A stretch of 53,155 bases of DNA from Gemmatimonadota bacterium (GTDB taxonomy: Bacteria; Gemmatimonadota; Gemmatimonadetes; Longimicrobiales; Gaopeijiaceae): NCBI GenBank assembly GCA_027623325.1, contig JAQBXY010000024.1, positions 1-53,155 of the forward strand, written 5' to 3'. Made by a program: the position numbers and the translations under genes. Below are positions 1-28,723 of the stretch, one piece after another. Under the pieces are notes generated by a model. It ran no database searches and had not been told where the DNA came from. It saw nothing but the letters and a program-made list of their open reading frames with translations. The number at the start of each line of letters is the position of its first letter. The first letter of the stretch is position 1.

Positions 1-405
1 CACGAACGAGGCCAAGGACGAGCGGTGCGAGTGCTCATCCCACCCGGGCGTAACGCACGGCTCAGTCCAAGGCCCTCGATGGCGTTGAAGGAGAGGAACC
101 GAAACGTCCGCTCCGTCCGAAAATTCGGACGGCGCGAGTGGCACAGGCGCTCAGGCTACAATAAGCACAGCTTGGTCGAGAACGATGACCTCGCTCGGGA
201 TGCCCGACAGCTGCCGAGTGGCGTGATCCCCGCCGAGGGGGGGGAGAATTCGTCCTCAGCTCGGAGCCATGCACCCACGCTATCCGCTCGGCCAAACCAC
301 GGAACTCATGCCGGCATGGGTTATGGCACAATAGCGGCACAAATGGCAGCGCCCCCCCTTTCGGGAAGTCCCCGCCGTTCTCGTAAGTCGTTGTGCCACA
401 ACACA
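1..405. other. Leading stretch without a recognisable gene
   Basis: Long open frames cross this stretch on both strands, but their products are Arg/Pro/Ser-rich, resemble no family I know, and run straight through the tRNA that follows, so I regard them as artefacts of high GC. The only structure I see is the inverted repeat at 113-132. Confidence 0.5.
113..132. repeat. Perfect inverted repeat, 9-bp arms
   Basis: Arms CCGTCCGAA and TTCGGACGG flank a 2-nt centre. It could be an operator or the stem of a terminator for a gene left of the window. No T-run follows on either strand, so its role is open. Confidence 0.4.
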
Positions 406-2807: not shown

Positions 2808-3197
2808 TCAGTCGCGCCCCAATTCTGCATCGATCGAGTTCGCCAGATCGCTGTTCTTCGCGATGAGCGATTGAAAGCTCCCGGCAGCCACCCCGCCCGA
2901 GGTGCCGAGCTCCACTAGCTTGCTCCGCAGATCCTCGTCGGCAGCGAGCCTCGCCCACGGTCGAATCAACCCGAACTGGCTAGGACTGTGGCTCGACAAC
3001 GTATCCGCGAGGGGGACATCCCAGTAGGGCCTAAAGGCCTCGCGCCACCGGTGGTTCTGGTCCCGCACGTATCCGTGGAGGAAGCTCGCCGACTCTTGAT
3101 CCACCTCCTCGAGCCCTCCCTCACGCGTGCGTCTGGCGCGCGTGTATGGCGCGCTCTCCGAGTAGGCGGCAGCTTGGGACACTGGGAGGGACACCAC
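2808..3197 (-). CDS. Possible remnant of a second DUF6090-like gene
   Basis: The last ~75 residues of this frame, including ADEDLRSKLVELGTS and SLIAKNSDLANSIDAEL, read like the helical C-terminal end of DUF6090-type proteins (short regions measured for being kept or lost, ending in an IDAEL-like helix). The first ~28 residues look random and would lie on top of the ribosome binding site of the divergent gene, so a start near the GTG at about 3103 or a truncated gene is likely. No membrane segment is present. Coding status is uncertain. Confidence 0.35.
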   Translation of the reverse strand: MVSLPVSQAAAYSESAPYTRARRTREGGLEEVDQESASFLHGYVRDQNHRWREAFRPYWDVPLADTLSSHSPSQFGLIRPWARLAADEDLRSKLVELGTSGGVAAGSFQSLIAKNSDLANSIDAELGRD

Positions 3198-3211
3198 CCC
3201 GGAGAGACACT

Positions 3212-3625
3212 GTGCGCACGTCGAAAACGAAGATTGCCTGCACCCTGACGCTCGTCCTCTTCACGGCCTCCTGCGCCGCGTCCTCTGCGGGGTCGGCCGA
3301 CGGAGACGAGGCGGCCTCCGCGAGTGGTGGCGGTTCGGTCCTGACCGGAGAAGCCGTGCTGGCCACCCATGAGTCCGACCTGTACCGCGCGCTTCAAAGG
3401 CTGCGCCCGAGTTGGTTGCGCCCCCGGGGACAGGCTGCAACGAATACCAGAACCGAGGTCACCTTGTTCGTGGATGGTGTCCCACGGGGCACCGCGCGTG
3501 ATCTGGGCACGATTCCCCTCACGGCGGTCGTCGACATCCGCTTCCTGTCGGCGAGCGAAGCCGGCTTCGCGTTCGGTACGCTGGCGGGCAACGGTGGTAC
3601 GCTAGTGGTTCGCACGCGCCGCTAA
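3212..3625 (+). CDS. Small lipoprotein resembling an isolated TonB-receptor plug
   Basis: The GTG at 3212 is chosen because GGAGAG lies 5-6 nt upstream and the product then begins with a typical signal peptide ending in a lipobox (LFTASC). The mature part is about 110 residues with an Ala/Ser/Gly linker. The last ~60 residues match the order of motifs in TonB-dependent receptor plug domains: LFVDGVPRGT (usually xYVDGVxxG), then IPLTAVVDIRFLSASEAGFAFG (usually the xxVERIEVLKGPxAAxLYG block) and finally GGTLVVRTRR (usually NGVIxITTKRG). No barrel follows and the stop codon is clean. It would sit as a lipid-anchored protein in the periplasm or outer membrane. The plug relation is an inference from motif order. 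Confidence 0.7.
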   Translation: MRTSKTKIACTLTLVLFTASCAASSAGSADGDEAASASGGGSVLTGEAVLATHESDLYRALQRLRPSWLRPRGQAATNTRTEVTLFVDGVPRGTARDLGTIPLTAVVDIRFLSASEAGFAFGTLAGNGGTLVVRTRR

Positions 3626-3649: not shown

Positions 3650-5032
3650 TCACCGCTCCATGCGCCCCAGCTGAAAGCGCATCGAGTCCTCGACACCCTC
3701 GTAAAAGAACTCGAAGCCCGACTTCTGCACCTTGGTGGGAAGCACCCGCTGGCCCCACAAAAGCGCCTCGGTCCCCAACTCTCCGAAGGCGGCTTTCACC
3801 GCGATGCCCGGAACGGGGATGACGGTCGGACGACCGAGGACTCGACCGAGCGCCGAGGTGAAGGTCGCGTTGGTGACCGGGTGCGGTGACGTCGCGTTGA
3901 TCGGCCCTCGCAGCGAGTCGTCGTAGAGCAGATGGAGAATCAGGCCGGTGAGATCATCGAGGTCGATCCAGCTCATGTACTGCTTCCCGGACCCGAGGCG
4001 ACCGCCGGCGCCCATCTTGAAGGGCAGAAGCATCTGACCGAGGGCTCCACCCGCAGGCGACAAAGCGACTCCGGTTCGGAGCGTCACGACGCGGATTCCG
4101 GCCCGCTCGGCGGGCTTCGTCGCCCCTTCCCAGGCGCGGCACACCTCCGCCAGAAATCCCTTCCCGGCCGGCTCGGACTCGCCGAGGCTGTCCGCTCCGC
4201 GATCGCCGTAGAATCCGACTGCGGAGGATGAGATCAGGACCTTGGGACCATTCTTCATCGTGGACAGCGTACGCGCCAGAAGCTCGGTACCCCTCACTCT
4301 GCTCTGCTTGATGGATCGTTTCCGTTCGTCGGTCCAACGCCCATCGGCGATCGGTGTGCCTGCCAGATGAACGACCGCGTCGACCCGGGTCAGCCCCTTC
4401 TCGTCGATGACCCCAGAGGACGGATTCCAGAAGACGGATGAGTCATCCATCTTCCGACTGTCCCGCACGAGGGACACGACCTCGTGACCGCCCGTGGTGA
4501 GGAACGCACGAAGGTTGCTCCCCACCAATCCCGAGGCACCGGTGATCGCGACGGTGAGTCTCTTTCGCTCACGGTGCTCTGCGTGTCGTGCCAGATCGGT
4601 GAAGAGCCGCTGATATCGAAAGCGGAAGAGGCGGTCCAGTTCGCCCTTGATGAACGTCGGTCCGAGCGCCGCTCCCGCTGCTCCGAGCGGCGCTTCGAGT
4701 TCGATGTCGTCGGTCGCGATCGTGCCTCCACCCGGTGCCGCCGAGAAGCCGTGTGTATGCACCCAACTGCTCAGGGGGCCCTCGACTTGTTCGTCCCGAA
4801 ACTGCTTCCCGTACTCGTAGTCACGATGCTTGAGATCCCAGCGAAAGCTGGCCGGACCCCGATGCACGCGGAGGCTCACCTTCCCGCCGTCACGGATGCC
4901 ACCCGACTGGTGCAGCACCTCGACCTTCCCCCACGGAGGGGTCAGGCGCTCGAGCGCTCCCGGGCGTTCATGCCAGTCAAAAACCTCTTCGGGCGTGTGG
5001 TTCGGCAGTTCGGTTCGGAATGTGTAACGCAT
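3650..5032 (-). CDS. SRPBCC domain fused to TIGR01777-type NAD-dependent epimerase
   Basis: The N-terminal ~150 residues look like a START/SRPBCC ligand-binding domain (RTELPNHTPEEVFDWHERPGALERLTPPW). From about residue 158 an extended SDR follows with the nucleotide loop GASGLVGSNL, then HLAGTPIADGRW, SSSAVGFYGDRG with the Tyr of the active site, and the C-terminal YEG/GFEFFY region seen in the YfcH/SDR39U1 group. The full length of 460 residues matches the fused form known from several phyla. The substrate of this family is not known. It ends 24 bp from the convergent lipoprotein gene and is transcribed away from the neighbouring glycosyltransferase cluster only by a 75-bp gap, so it may be co-transcribed with nothing else. 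Confidence 0.88.
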   Translation of the reverse strand: MRYTFRTELPNHTPEEVFDWHERPGALERLTPPWGKVEVLHQSGGIRDGGKVSLRVHRGPASFRWDLKHRDYEYGKQFRDEQVEGPLSSWVHTHGFSAAPGGGTIATDDIELEAPLGAAGAALGPTFIKGELDRLFRFRYQRLFTDLARHAEHRERKRLTVAITGASGLVGSNLRAFLTTGGHEVVSLVRDSRKMDDSSVFWNPSSGVIDEKGLTRVDAVVHLAGTPIADGRWTDERKRSIKQSRVRGTELLARTLSTMKNGPKVLISSSAVGFYGDRGADSLGESEPAGKGFLAEVCRAWEGATKPAERAGIRVVTLRTGVALSPAGGALGQMLLPFKMGAGGRLGSGKQYMSWIDLDDLTGLILHLLYDDSLRGPINATSPHPVTNATFTSALGRVLGRPTVIPVPGIAVKAAFGELGTEALLWGQRVLPTKVQKSGFEFFYEGVEDSMRFQLGRMER

Positions 5033-23984: not shown

Positions 23985-24281
23985 GGGTTTCCTCTATCGT
24001 CTCGTTAACGGGGAGTGTCGTTGCCCAACGAGTGGCCCGCGCCGCCTCGCGGGCGCGCCCTACACTACTACACTATAAGGACTCGAACTCGGCGCACCGA
24101 GGTCCGCTTTGGCCACCGTTGCCGGTTTGCGCCCCTCGACGTACTGTAAACACTAGTGATCGGGGGTTCCCTGCCTACTTCGCCCCCCCCCACGGCGCAC
24201 GTGTGTGTGCGCATCTCTTGTGATGGACGGTTGGCTGGGGCCGTTCGCACGCGGGTATTTCTTGTCACTAGGAGGAACTCC
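23985..24281 (+). promoter_or_regulatory. Upstream region of the SusC/SusD pair with strong RBS
   Basis: About 300 bp without a gene. A candidate -10 box TATAAG lies near 24073-24078 in an AT-rich patch in otherwise GC-rich DNA, but I see no convincing -35. A strong AGGAGG at 24270-24275, 6 nt before the ATG at 24282, fixes the SusC start, which is later than the longest frame (24156). Confidence 0.5.
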
Positions 24282-27200
24282 ATGGTGTCGAATGTTGTGA
24301 GATCGACCCCACCATCGTGGCGAGCGGGGCTTATGGCTCTGCTGGCGTTCGCTTTGGTCGGGGCAAGCGCGCCTGCTCTGCAGGCGCAGACAGGCCAGAT
24401 TACGGGTAACGTGACGAATGCGGCATCGGGTGCCGCCCTCGGCGAAGTCCAGGTGTTCCTGGAAGGTCGCCAGCTGGGAACCTTGACTCGGTCGGACGGC
24501 CGCTACCTCATCTTGAACGTGCCGGTTGGCGCGTACCAGGTGACGGCTCAGCGGATCGGGTTCGGCTCCGTCACTCAGGCCGTCACCGTGACGGCGGGCA
24601 GCGCGGCTGCCGTGAACTTCTCCCTCTCGACCCAAGCACTCGGTCTCGACGAAATCGTCGTTACGGGTACGGCAGGCGCGTCGCGCCGTCGTGAGGTCGG
24701 GAACTCCATCGCGCAGATCAACATCGCTGACGTGCCCGATCGCCCGGTTTCGGCGGTCGACATGCTCCAGGGTGCTGCGCCGGGCATCGACGTCATGGGC
24801 GCGAGTGGTGAGGCCGGACAGGGCCGCCAGATCCGACTGCGCGGAAACTCGTCCGTGTCGATGACGAACAACCCGATCATCTACATCGACGGAATCCGGA
24901 TGCGCTCCGACGCGCTGCCGATCGTCAACAGTCTGGACACCGGTTCAGGCCGCGGCGCGCGTGTTTCGGTCAGCCCGCTCGACAACCTCAATCCGAACGA
25001 CATCGAGCGGATCGAGATCATCAAGGGTTCGGCGGCAACGACGCTCTACGGCACGGAAGCTTCGGCCGGCGTCATCCAGGTCTTCACGAAGCGCGGCTCG
25101 ACCGGGGCTCCGGTCTGGACCGCGGAAGTCCAGCAGGGCACCGGTTGGATGCAGGAGTTCGGTGTGAACGGCATGGACTACCTGAACATGGAACACTACA
25201 TGCGGGACGCGTTGTGGGGCGGCGGCTACGAAGGCGGCGAGTTCTCCGTTGACTGCGCCACCGACGCCACCGACACCGACAACCGCTGGCAGGGCGAGAA
25301 CGCCACGGCCGAGGGCGCGTGCTCCTGGCCCGGTGCCATCTGGATGCAGAACTACAGCCTCTCCGTGCGCGGCGGGGGCCAGGCACTGCAGTACTTCATC
25401 TCGGGCCAGCTCCAGGATGACCAGTACGCGTTGCCGAATGATGAGCTCGAGAAGTACAACTTCCGCGGCAACTTCACGATGACGCCGACGGACAACCTTC
25501 AGATCCAGTGGAACACCGGCTACACGAATCAGTGGCAGGCCAACACGTCGACGGCGAACAACGCCCAAGGCGTGACGCTGAACGCGTTCCGCCAGGAGCG
25601 TAACTACTGGGGCTCGGGTGATCCGACCCGGATCGCGGAAGCCATGGACTACGACCTCCAGCAGACCGTCGAGCGCCTGAGCACCGGCATGACGGCCAAC
25701 TACACCCCGCTCGCGAACATGACGAACCGTTTCACGGTCGGGTACGACTTCACGCAGCAGGAAGGCCGTAACCTGCGGAACTTCGGCTTCACGCAGTTCC
25801 CGCGGGGCTCGATCACGAACGACACGTATCAGAACCGGCTCCTCACCTTCGAGTACGTCGGCTCGTACGCGTTCTCGCTGACCGAGTCGGTCGGTTCGAA
25901 CTTCTCCTGGGGCGGCCAGGCCGTCGGCGACGAAGACCGTCGCCTCCAGGGCTACGGCGAGAACTTCCCCGGCGCCGCTGAGCCGACCGTATCGTCGGCC
26001 GCGCTGACGTTCGCTCGGGAGAGCCGCCAGAAGGTTTGGAACGCGGGCTTCTTCGTCCAGAATGTCTTCGACTTCTCGGACAAGTACTTCCTCACCGGTG
26101 GTGTTCGCGTCGACGGTAACAGCGCGTTCGGATCGGGCTTCGGGCTTCAGGTCTATCCGAAGGTCTCCGCCGTGTGGATCATGAGCGACGAGGACTTCTT
26201 CTCAGACGCGATGGGTACGTTCAAGCTGCGGGCCGCCTACGGTCAGTCCGGTCGTGCGCCTGGAGCGTTCGACGCGGTCCGGACGTGGAATCCGGCAGGC
26301 TTCGTCGGACTCCCGGCGTTTACGCCGAGCAACCTCGGCAACGCCAACCTCGGTCCGGAAGTTACGGCCGAATGGGAAGTCGGGTTCGACGCCTCCTGGT
26401 TCAGTGATCGCGTCAACGCCGTCTTCACGTACTACAACCAGCGCACGACCGACGCGCTCATGAACGTCGCGGCGATCCCGTCCAGCGGCTTCACGAGCAG
26501 CCAGTTGCAGAACGTCGGTGAAGTGGGCAACACGGGCGTCGAGCTTCAGCTCGACGGTTCGGTATACCAGTCCGCCGACTGGGGGGTCGACCTCGGCTTC
26601 GGCTTCAGCACAAACAACTCCGAAGTCATCAGCCTCTGCAGTGATCCCGCCGACCTGACCACATGTATCGCCGAGTTCAGCGATCTCAATGGTCGGATCA
26701 TCGAAGGGTACCCGGTTCCCGTGCAGTGGGACCGTAGGACCGCCAATCCGGACAACGTCGATGGCACGTACCAGTACGCCTGCGACGACCGGGATCCGTT
26801 GGTCGAGGGCGACTACCCCTCGCTTACCGTCGGCGGGTGCACGGCCAATCTTCCAATCGGACCACAGCTTCCGACCACCTTCATGACGCCGAGCCTCACA
26901 GTCCGGGTGCCGGGCAACATTTCGTTGTCCGCGCGCGGTGAGTTCCGTGGCGGCCACTTCGCCGAGATCGCACCGATCCCGGTGGGGCGTTCGGTTCGGT
27001 CCGCGCTCTGCTTCCCGTGGTACGTTGGACCGGCGGGTTTTTCCACGCCGACCTCGAAGACGCTGGCCCTCAAGCCCGAGACACCCAACGGCATGCGTGA
27101 GCGGTGCACGCCGGCGGGAGCCCGCGACAATTGGTACAAGGCCGACTACTTCAAGCTGCGCAGCGTGAGCGCGACGATCCCGATGGACTTCGCGTTCCCG

Positions 27201-27386
27201 GATCGTGTGTCGGGTGCGACGCTGACGCTCGCGCTTCAGAACGCGTTCGATTGGTACAAGGAGATTCCGTGGTACGATGCGGAAATTCAGGGCAACGCCG
27301 CCGCTGGTGACGATGGTATCGGCCAGCAGACCGAACGTATTCCTTCACCCGCCACGTTCCGGATGTCCCTCCGGGTCACGTTCTAA
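24282..27386 (+). CDS. SusC/RagA-type TonB-linked outer-membrane transporter
   Basis: A 1034-residue barrel protein. Signal peptide (ALLAFALVGASAPALQAQ), a carboxypeptidase-regulatory-like domain (GNVTNAASGAALGEVQVFLEG), the SusC plug (VSAVDMLQGAAPGIDVMG, IRLRGNSSVSMTNNPIIYIDG, IEIIKGSAATTLYGTEASAGVIQVFTKRG) and a long barrel ending in SLRVTF. SusC proteins form the channel of pedal-bin importers with a SusD lipoprotein as lid; ligands are glycans or peptides. The SusD gene follows after 14 bp. Codon use is strongly GC-ending and Asn/Thr-rich loops fit high expression. No glycosidase or sigma/anti-sigma partner is next to it, so the ligand is unclear. Confidence 0.95.
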   Translation: MVSNVVRSTPPSWRAGLMALLAFALVGASAPALQAQTGQITGNVTNAASGAALGEVQVFLEGRQLGTLTRSDGRYLILNVPVGAYQVTAQRIGFGSVTQAVTVTAGSAAAVNFSLSTQALGLDEIVVTGTAGASRRREVGNSIAQINIADVPDRPVSAVDMLQGAAPGIDVMGASGEAGQGRQIRLRGNSSVSMTNNPIIYIDGIRMRSDALPIVNSLDTGSGRGARVSVSPLDNLNPNDIERIEIIKGSAATTLYGTEASAGVIQVFTKRGSTGAPVWTAEVQQGTGWMQEFGVNGMDYLNMEHYMRDALWGGGYEGGEFSVDCATDATDTDNRWQGENATAEGACSWPGAIWMQNYSLSVRGGGQALQYFISGQLQDDQYALPNDELEKYNFRGNFTMTPTDNLQIQWNTGYTNQWQANTSTANNAQGVTLNAFRQERNYWGSGDPTRIAEAMDYDLQQTVERLSTGMTANYTPLANMTNRFTVGYDFTQQEGRNLRNFGFTQFPRGSITNDTYQNRLLTFEYVGSYAFSLTESVGSNFSWGGQAVGDEDRRLQGYGENFPGAAEPTVSSAALTFARESRQKVWNAGFFVQNVFDFSDKYFLTGGVRVDGNSAFGSGFGLQVYPKVSAVWIMSDEDFFSDAMGTFKLRAAYGQSGRAPGAFDAVRTWNPAGFVGLPAFTPSNLGNANLGPEVTAEWEVGFDASWFSDRVNAVFTYYNQRTTDALMNVAAIPSSGFTSSQLQNVGEVGNTGVELQLDGSVYQSADWGVDLGFGFSTNNSEVISLCSDPADLTTCIAEFSDLNGRIIEGYPVPVQWDRRTANPDNVDGTYQYACDDRDPLVEGDYPSLTVGGCTANLPIGPQLPTTFMTPSLTVRVPGNISLSARGEFRGGHFAEIAPIPVGRSVRSALCFPWYVGPAGFSTPTSKTLALKPETPNGMRERCTPAGARDNWYKADYFKLRSVSATIPMDFAFPDRVSGATLTLALQNAFDWYKEIPWYDAEIQGNAAAGDDGIGQQTERIPSPATFRMSLRVTF

Positions 27387-27400
27387 GGGGGGATCACACA

Positions 27401-28723
27401 ATGAAAATGACAAATCACAAGAAGACAGGACTCCTAACCGCGGGGGCATTCACGTTCTTGCTTCTCGCCGGTTGCGATGTCGTCAATCCGGGTCCGGTAC
27501 AGGACGAGTTCCTGGCCGAGGAGGCTTCTCAGCCCGGGCTCATCAACGGCTCGGTCCGGCGGCTCGCCGAAGCGTTGTCGTACGGCAATTACACGATGGC
27601 GATTCTGTCCCGGGAGGTCTTCCCGGGCGGTCAGATCGGAGCCTTCGGGCACGATGTGGCCGTTCAGGGCGGGCATGTCCAGCCGGGTTACGATGTCGGT
27701 CGCTGGAACCAAACGCAGCAAGCCCGGTTCATCGCCGAAACCGCGATCAAGCGGTTCACGGAGGTGAACGCCAGTAACGCCAACATGTATCGGGCCCACC
27801 TGTACGCAGCGTTCGCATACAGGACACTCGGTGAGTGGTGGTGTGACGCCGTGATCGGAGACACCGATCCTGACGTCACGACGCCCGGGTCGTTCGAGGC
27901 GGGCACGACGACGTACTTCAACCGGGCGGTGACCAACTTCACAGCCGCCCTGGGCTTCGCGAGCAACGACGCCGAGCGACATGCGGCGTTGGCGGGGCGT
28001 GCGTCGGCCTATCTGTGGCTGGGCAGCTTCGCCCTAGCCCAGGCAGACGCCGCGGGTGTTCCGGACAGCTTCGTGCTGACCATCACCTTCGACGCGCAGG
28101 AGCAGGCGTACTACAACTCGATCCAATGGGCAAACGCCAAGACCCCGTACCTGTCCTACTCGCTCGAGAACACGTGGCAGAAGTCGTATTACGATGCCAC
28201 GGGAGATCCGAGGACTCGGTGGGTAGTCGACGCGGGCTTCCCGTTCGCGGTGGGCTCGCTGTCAGGGTTCGGTCAGGTTCCGTGGTCGAACCAGACGAAG
28301 TTCACGGACCGCGGCGACGATGCGCGTATCGCTAGTGGTTGGGAGATGCGCTTGGTCGAGGCTGAGGCGATCCTTGCTTCCGGTGGCAGCTTCGCCACGG
28401 CGCTGGGCCTGATCAACCAGGTTCGGACGAGATTCAACAGCACTCTCCCCGGCAACGCGCCACTGACTGCCTACACCGCTGCCGACGCGACGGAAGCGTG
28501 GCAGTGGCTCAAGCAGGAGCGTGGGCTCGAGTTGTGGCTCGAAGGTCGACGTCTCGGGGACGAGCGTCGTTGGATGGCGACAAACGCTCCGGGCGCGCTC
28601 TATCAGCCGCCGGTGGCGTGGGAGACGTTGAGCCCGCTGTTCACCAGCAACCCTCGTTCGTACTGCCTGGACATCCCGGATTCAGAGCGGGATCGCAACC
28701 CGAACGTACCGCCGACCACCTGA
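27401..28723 (+). CDS. SusD/RagB-type substrate-binding lipoprotein
   Basis: A 440-residue surface lipoprotein with signal peptide and lipobox LLLAGC, then the SusD-like start CDVVNPGPVQDEFL. Helical TPR-like segments follow (RAHLYAAFAYRTLGEWWCD, HAALAGRASAYLWLG), and the C-terminal part has WEMRLVEAEAILASGG, LINQVRTRFN and LKQERGLELWLEGRRLGDERRW, the RagB/SusD hallmark ending. It would act as the lid of the SusC channel encoded 14 bp upstream. Both genes likely share one transcript ended by the terminator at 28773. Confidence 0.95.
   Translation: MKMTNHKKTGLLTAGAFTFLLLAGCDVVNPGPVQDEFLAEEASQPGLINGSVRRLAEALSYGNYTMAILSREVFPGGQIGAFGHDVAVQGGHVQPGYDVGRWNQTQQARFIAETAIKRFTEVNASNANMYRAHLYAAFAYRTLGEWWCDAVIGDTDPDVTTPGSFEAGTTTYFNRAVTNFTAALGFASNDAERHAALAGRASAYLWLGSFALAQADAAGVPDSFVLTITFDAQEQAYYNSIQWANAKTPYLSYSLENTWQKSYYDATGDPRTRWVVDAGFPFAVGSLSGFGQVPWSNQTKFTDRGDDARIASGWEMRLVEAEAILASGGSFATALGLINQVRTRFNSTLPGNAPLTAYTAADATEAWQWLKQERGLELWLEGRRLGDERRWMATNAPGALYQPPVAWETLSPLFTSNPRSYCLDIPDSERDRNPNVPPTT

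Follow-up and report, generated by a model that had tools for sequence, protein, structure and literature searches.

Gemmatimonadota genomes encode a large, multi-copy and apparently undescribed family of proteins built around a domain like the plug of TonB-dependent receptors. The domain stands alone, without a barrel, and in most members it is predicted to be tethered by a lipid anchor. The member from which the family was traced lies at positions 3212–3625 of the window, by which we mean the whole stretch of 53,155 nucleotides that was analysed. Within the limits of structure prediction and of homology seen by profile, its product has the plug fold. The family lacks several features of receptor plugs, and the fold may have been reused for interactions in the periplasm.

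The gene and its product

The reading frame starts with GTG at position 3212 and stops with TAA at 3623–3625. It is alone on its strand, and the gene at 3650–5032 converges on it 25 bases downstream. Since the frame is closed, lies inside a 53-kb contig and is met by a convergent gene, it is not a broken receptor; a longer gene interrupted by an assembly break, which the earlier note had named as a way for its idea to fail, is thereby ruled out. The features are as follows (basis in brackets).

3201–3206, plus strand: GGAGAG, likely ribosome-binding site, 5 nt ahead of the GTG (sequence reading)
3212–3625, plus strand: complete gene for a lipoprotein-anchored plug domain, 137 amino acids and stop (open reading frame, same-frame homologues)
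3212–3271, plus strand: signal peptide VRTSKTKIACTLTLVLFTAS, short and hydrophobic, in a layout shared by homologues (sequence reading)
3272–3274, plus strand: lipobox cysteine (LFTASC), with Ala at residue +2 (sequence)
3275–3328, plus strand: Ala/Ser/Gly-rich linker without a TonB-box-like motif (regular expression)
3329–3622, plus strand: predicted plug-fold domain, 98 amino acids (AF2 model, fold matches, hhalign)
3398–3418, plus strand: RLRPSWL (family consensus RLRPRWL), where receptors have a PGV-type motif (alignment)
3470–3481, plus strand: VDGV, common to receptor plugs (alignment)
3512–3577, plus strand: IPLTAVVDIRFLSASEAGFAFG, counterpart of the receptor stretch that ends in YG, with Ser at the receptor lock Arg/Lys (alignment)
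3593–3622, plus strand: GGTLVVRTRR, last plug strand and end of the protein, where receptors enter the barrel (sequence, alignment)
3650–5032, minus strand: NAD-dependent epimerase/DUF1731 protein, convergent neighbour outside the system (Pfam)

The earlier note had recognised a plug-like order of three motifs (VDGVPRG, IPLTAVVDIRFLSASEAGFAFG and GGTLVVRTRR) and no barrel. All three motifs are present in the protein, and the reading frame ends with the last plug strand. Beyond what had been claimed, the plug is whole and not represented by its C-terminal motifs alone; its N-terminal part carries RLRPSWL.

Two minus-strand reading frames upstream (window 2808–3197 and 1869–2624) have no Pfam match. 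On inspection by eye their ends resemble each other, and the shorter frame could be what is left of one of the longer type.

Extent of the family

The translated window protein has a match in 54 of 59 related genomes (E ≤ 0.001; best outside its own genome 2.7e-16), and the reading frame is therefore more than a product of chance. Three family members occur in its own genome (G000), namely C6 (the window gene), C8 and C11. A first scan of a genome contig collection with the window protein as query gave no relative, and a second one, for which the query was an alignment of a few family members, yielded 35 loci. Of these, 34 bear titles that name Gemmatimonadetes, Gemmatimonadota, Gemmatimonadales, Gemmatimonadaceae or Longimicrobiales (the last lying within Gemmatimonadota), and one is titled 'uncultured bacterium'. 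Phyla outside Gemmatimonadota were covered by the two-motif contig scan and a plasmid collection only; the plasmid collection held no family match.

At E ≤ 1e-12, a cut-off that separates the family from receptor plugs in its own genome, the family occurs in 53 of 81 genomes of the phylum, with 133 copies in total and up to seven per genome. A looser count at E ≤ 1e-4 reaches 129 of 150 genomes, receptor-plug cross-hits included, and finds nine places in the own genome, three of which are family; because of these cross-hits, the stricter count is preferred.

Two alignments were used. The first (A1) has 29 rows from 32 family-match loci, with the near-identical L018, L022 and L024 omitted; the second (A3) combines the window domain with 30 of the 35 contig-scan loci, leaving out L061, L063, L064, L088 and L089 as near-copies or cut. 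In A3, R26, A78, G83 and G90 are invariant, and P27, W29, D49 and S74–D77 nearly so. A literature search, largely outside subscription journals, turned up no account of free plug lipoproteins of this kind. The suggestion that the class is widespread but barely described thus holds within Gemmatimonadota as far as tested.

Homology to receptor plugs and predicted fold

By itself, the window protein has no significant match in Pfam or NCBIfam, Plug (PF07715) included. Its sole Pfam match, DUF3293 (E 0.086), falls below the cut-off, occurs in one of 31 members and was taken as chance. The relationship emerges from the family: in A1, 14 of the 29 members match Pfam Plug (E ≤ 1; best 4.7e-7), as do 15 of the 31 in A3 (E ≤ 0.1), the window protein never being among them, and 8/29 match NCBIfam SusC/RagA. 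Searched against PDB sequences, the A3 profile gave 18 matches at E ≤ 10, every one a TonB receptor; the best, a SusC homologue (E 0.0051) and BtuB (E 0.0084, profile positions 11–107), are marginal taken singly. Alignment of the family profile with the 12 receptor plugs of the own genome by hhalign (probability 97.2, E 3.5e-11, 91 columns) spans the receptor plug domains over their whole length.

The AF2 model of the window domain (pLDDT 86.2, pTM 0.78) matches receptor plugs end to end, in agreement with the plug-like domain first proposed. Foldseek returned 229 matches at E ≤ 10, and all 50 among the matches listed are, by description, TonB-receptor structures or complexes with one. In VIA-align, 6z9a_B ranks first (Z 9.2, rmsd 2.5, 92 of 98 residues aligned, model 1..98); 49 of the 50 rows are TonB receptors, the exception being 9ld1, and Z 8 is reached by two rows only. 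As a control, a receptor plug from the window was folded without an alignment and gave an uninformative pLDDT of 39.

In predicted end-to-end fold and profile homology, the family resembles TonB-dependent receptor plugs (PF07715; SusC-type BT1763, BtuB, FhuA), with which it has in common the VDG, central-strand, YG/FG and last-strand motifs. It differs from them in its lipid anchor, in the absence of a barrel and of a TonB-box-like motif, in being about 10 residues shorter before VDG, and in having Ser at the second lock residue and RLRPRWL for the PGV-type motif.

Lipid anchor

The window protein is a predicted lipoprotein with the lipobox LFTASC, as had been claimed. The lipobox and linker were examined in 51 proteins, 29 of A1 and 22 of the 35 contig-scan loci, and a lipobox expression fits 48 of the 51. 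Inspection by eye corrects this count in both directions: L008, L017 and L086, which match, and L030, which does not, resemble ordinary signal peptides, and the non-matching L013 and L078 have a plausible Cys. Most, and not all, members would therefore be lipoproteins, and a few are predicted to be secreted with a plain signal peptide.

Features absent from the family

None of the 51 linkers was flagged by a TonB-box expression of our own making; 50 were tested, the linker of L060 having been mis-cut to zero. The earlier idea that the protein binds TonB is not borne out by these 50 linkers, with the caveat that TonB could bind elsewhere.

Two positions are taken here to lock the plug to the barrel: an Arg in the motif IRG, and an Arg or Lys in RGP/KGP. 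At the second, Arg or Lys is found in 9 of 12 receptors, in one of six other barrel-less plugs and in 0 of 31 family members (Ser in 28, Asp in two, Asn in one). The first depends on the alignment and is not counted as lost: MAFFT places the Arg of WLxxRG there in 27/31 members, HMMER places it in an insertion, and the AF2 model has no strand in this segment. Counted between the PG column and the VDG aspartate, the median length is 32 residues in receptors versus 22 in the family; this stretch presumably forms the ligand-binding apex loop in receptors.

A search with PF00593, which may miss some barrels, detected 12 barrel genes in the own genome, all 12 with a plug of their own. L051 (735 amino acids) has a Plug match and no barrel match, and L041 lies near a contig end. 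Together with the missing basic residue at the second lock position, the plugs present in all 12 barrel genes speak against a protein that blocks or gates a receptor.

Other barrel-less plug architectures

In L107 and L108 the family domain is doubled at the C-terminus of CarboxypepD_reg proteins, and L109 has it singly. The two doubled proteins (L107:2505–5003 and L108:2136–4160) have two tandem family plugs connected by Pro-rich linkers and a middle region without domain assignment. Neighbouring or tandem pairs of family genes occur at L112–L115 and L118.

The own genome further encodes barrel-less proteins that combine CarboxypepD_reg and Plug (L047, L048, L053, L103, L104; two in a row at L047). 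These resemble the family in that lock residue 2 is not basic in any of the five; they differ in being larger and in their N-terminal CarboxypepD_reg domain (by Pfam in L047, L048, L103 and L104, by eye in L053), and no lipobox layout was seen in these five. Related genomes have BlaR1-type M56 peptidases with a C-terminal half-plug (L131, L134, L143, L154). These and the half-plug of L129, which is anchored by a transmembrane segment, are plug-derived and barrel-less like the family; they differ in that mostly the C-terminal plug part alone matches Pfam Plug, and in being tied to M56 or TonB_C. The doubled, tandem, CarboxypepD_reg and M56 architectures argue that plug folds are freely used in the phylum.

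At L154, a TonB C-terminal-like stretch follows the M56 and half-plug regions in another frame. On contig C49 of G000, a tonB gene (L129:3102–3788; TonB_C E 5.6e-16) is directly followed by a gene for a half-plug protein (L129:3749–4336) with an apparent N-terminal membrane segment, forming a tonB–plug pair. Its IRG and IKG residues are kept, as they are in L052, which is the same gene.

Gene neighbourhood and copy number

Among 69 immediate neighbours at 37 loci, with genes called by a crude script, four match Plug and two SusD. These neighbours reveal neither a tie to receptors nor a function, and a role read from operon or neighbourhood was discarded. An M20 peptidase and a LiaF-like gene are kept neighbours of the C8-type copy, not of the window gene. 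The third member of the own genome (L122, contig C11) converges on a SusD gene, which is followed by a SusC-type receptor gene. The window itself has a SusC-type receptor at 24156–27386, then a lipoprotein at 27401–28723 that is SusD-like by appearance.

With genome size held fixed, family copies rise with barrel number across the 81 genomes (partial rank correlation 0.44, permutation p 5e-5), where barrel numbers are unscored first-look candidates (18 per genome scored) and relatedness is ignored. For genus means the value is 0.56 (n = 46); the corresponding values for peptidase M28, used as a control, are 0.15 and 0.25. Within genus g41, copies follow barrels closely (rho 0.88, n = 7). Counter-examples are genus g56 (rho −0.32, n = 6), and genus g70 (6/6 genomes) and family f9 (four), which have barrels and zero family copies. 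This covariation suggests that the family is connected with the receptors of the outer membrane or with their cargo; it would fit a function close to receptors, or plugs that just derive from them.

Proposed role and alternatives

The reading to which we give an even chance is that the plug fold has found a new use as an interaction module, tethered in the periplasm by a lipid anchor. A receptor plug domain would have lost its barrel and TonB box and become part of a lipoprotein, and the protein would sit on the inner surface of the outer membrane. There the domain would fold independently and bind proteins or ligands in the periplasm through the conserved residues of RLRPRWL..RG and SASDATTR(F/Y)GTGH, and would not gate a channel. 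The missing receptor-specific features (TonB box, lock residue 2, apex length) support a module and not a gate, as does the use of plugs outside barrels in the doubled, tandem and M56 architectures. The family probably does not serve as a channel stopper. The isolated FepA plug, which behaved as unfolded according to the review PMC11658791, counts against a module that folds independently.

The full-length plug fold would also suit a plug that acts in trans by filling the barrel of a plugless receptor. However, each barrel gene detected in the own genome already owns a plug, no member has a basic second lock residue and a chain that ends in two plugs fits badly, so that this reading is disfavoured and very improbable. 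Nor is it likely that the protein serves as a TonB sink that competes with receptors; a different half-plug protein of the own genome does stand directly behind a tonB gene, but the linkers lack any TonB-box-like motif that our expression could detect. The family might also consist of redundant copies of receptor plugs, not maintained for any function and commoner where receptors are many, which would account for the covariation with receptors. Such an origin has little probability in view of the strong family-specific conservation, with its four invariant residues, and of the neighbours that the C8-type copy keeps.

A regulator associated with receptors deserves a small share of belief. The lipid-anchored plug would touch receptors or their plugs from the periplasm and tune their opening or assembly, with one paralogue per receptor group. 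The rise of copies with barrel number, the lower M28 control and genus g41 favour it; g56, the barrel-bearing g70 and f9, the unscored barrel counts, the disregard of kinship and the lack of linkage to receptor genes weigh against it. Rather unlikely, too, is a phylum-wide system of lipid-anchored free plugs acting in trans, in which each paralogue would tune or select a receptor group or cargo and copy number would for that reason track receptors.

Significance

Plugs are known as stoppers of channels; a barrel-free form that occurs naturally in many copies, with conserved residues of its own, would mean that the fold has also come to serve as a free module. Some caution in annotation follows: not every protein labelled 'TonB-dependent receptor plug domain' should be taken for a receptor. 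The family would also offer a naturally isolated plug for study, where the isolated plug of FepA is reported to have been unfolded (PMC11658791).
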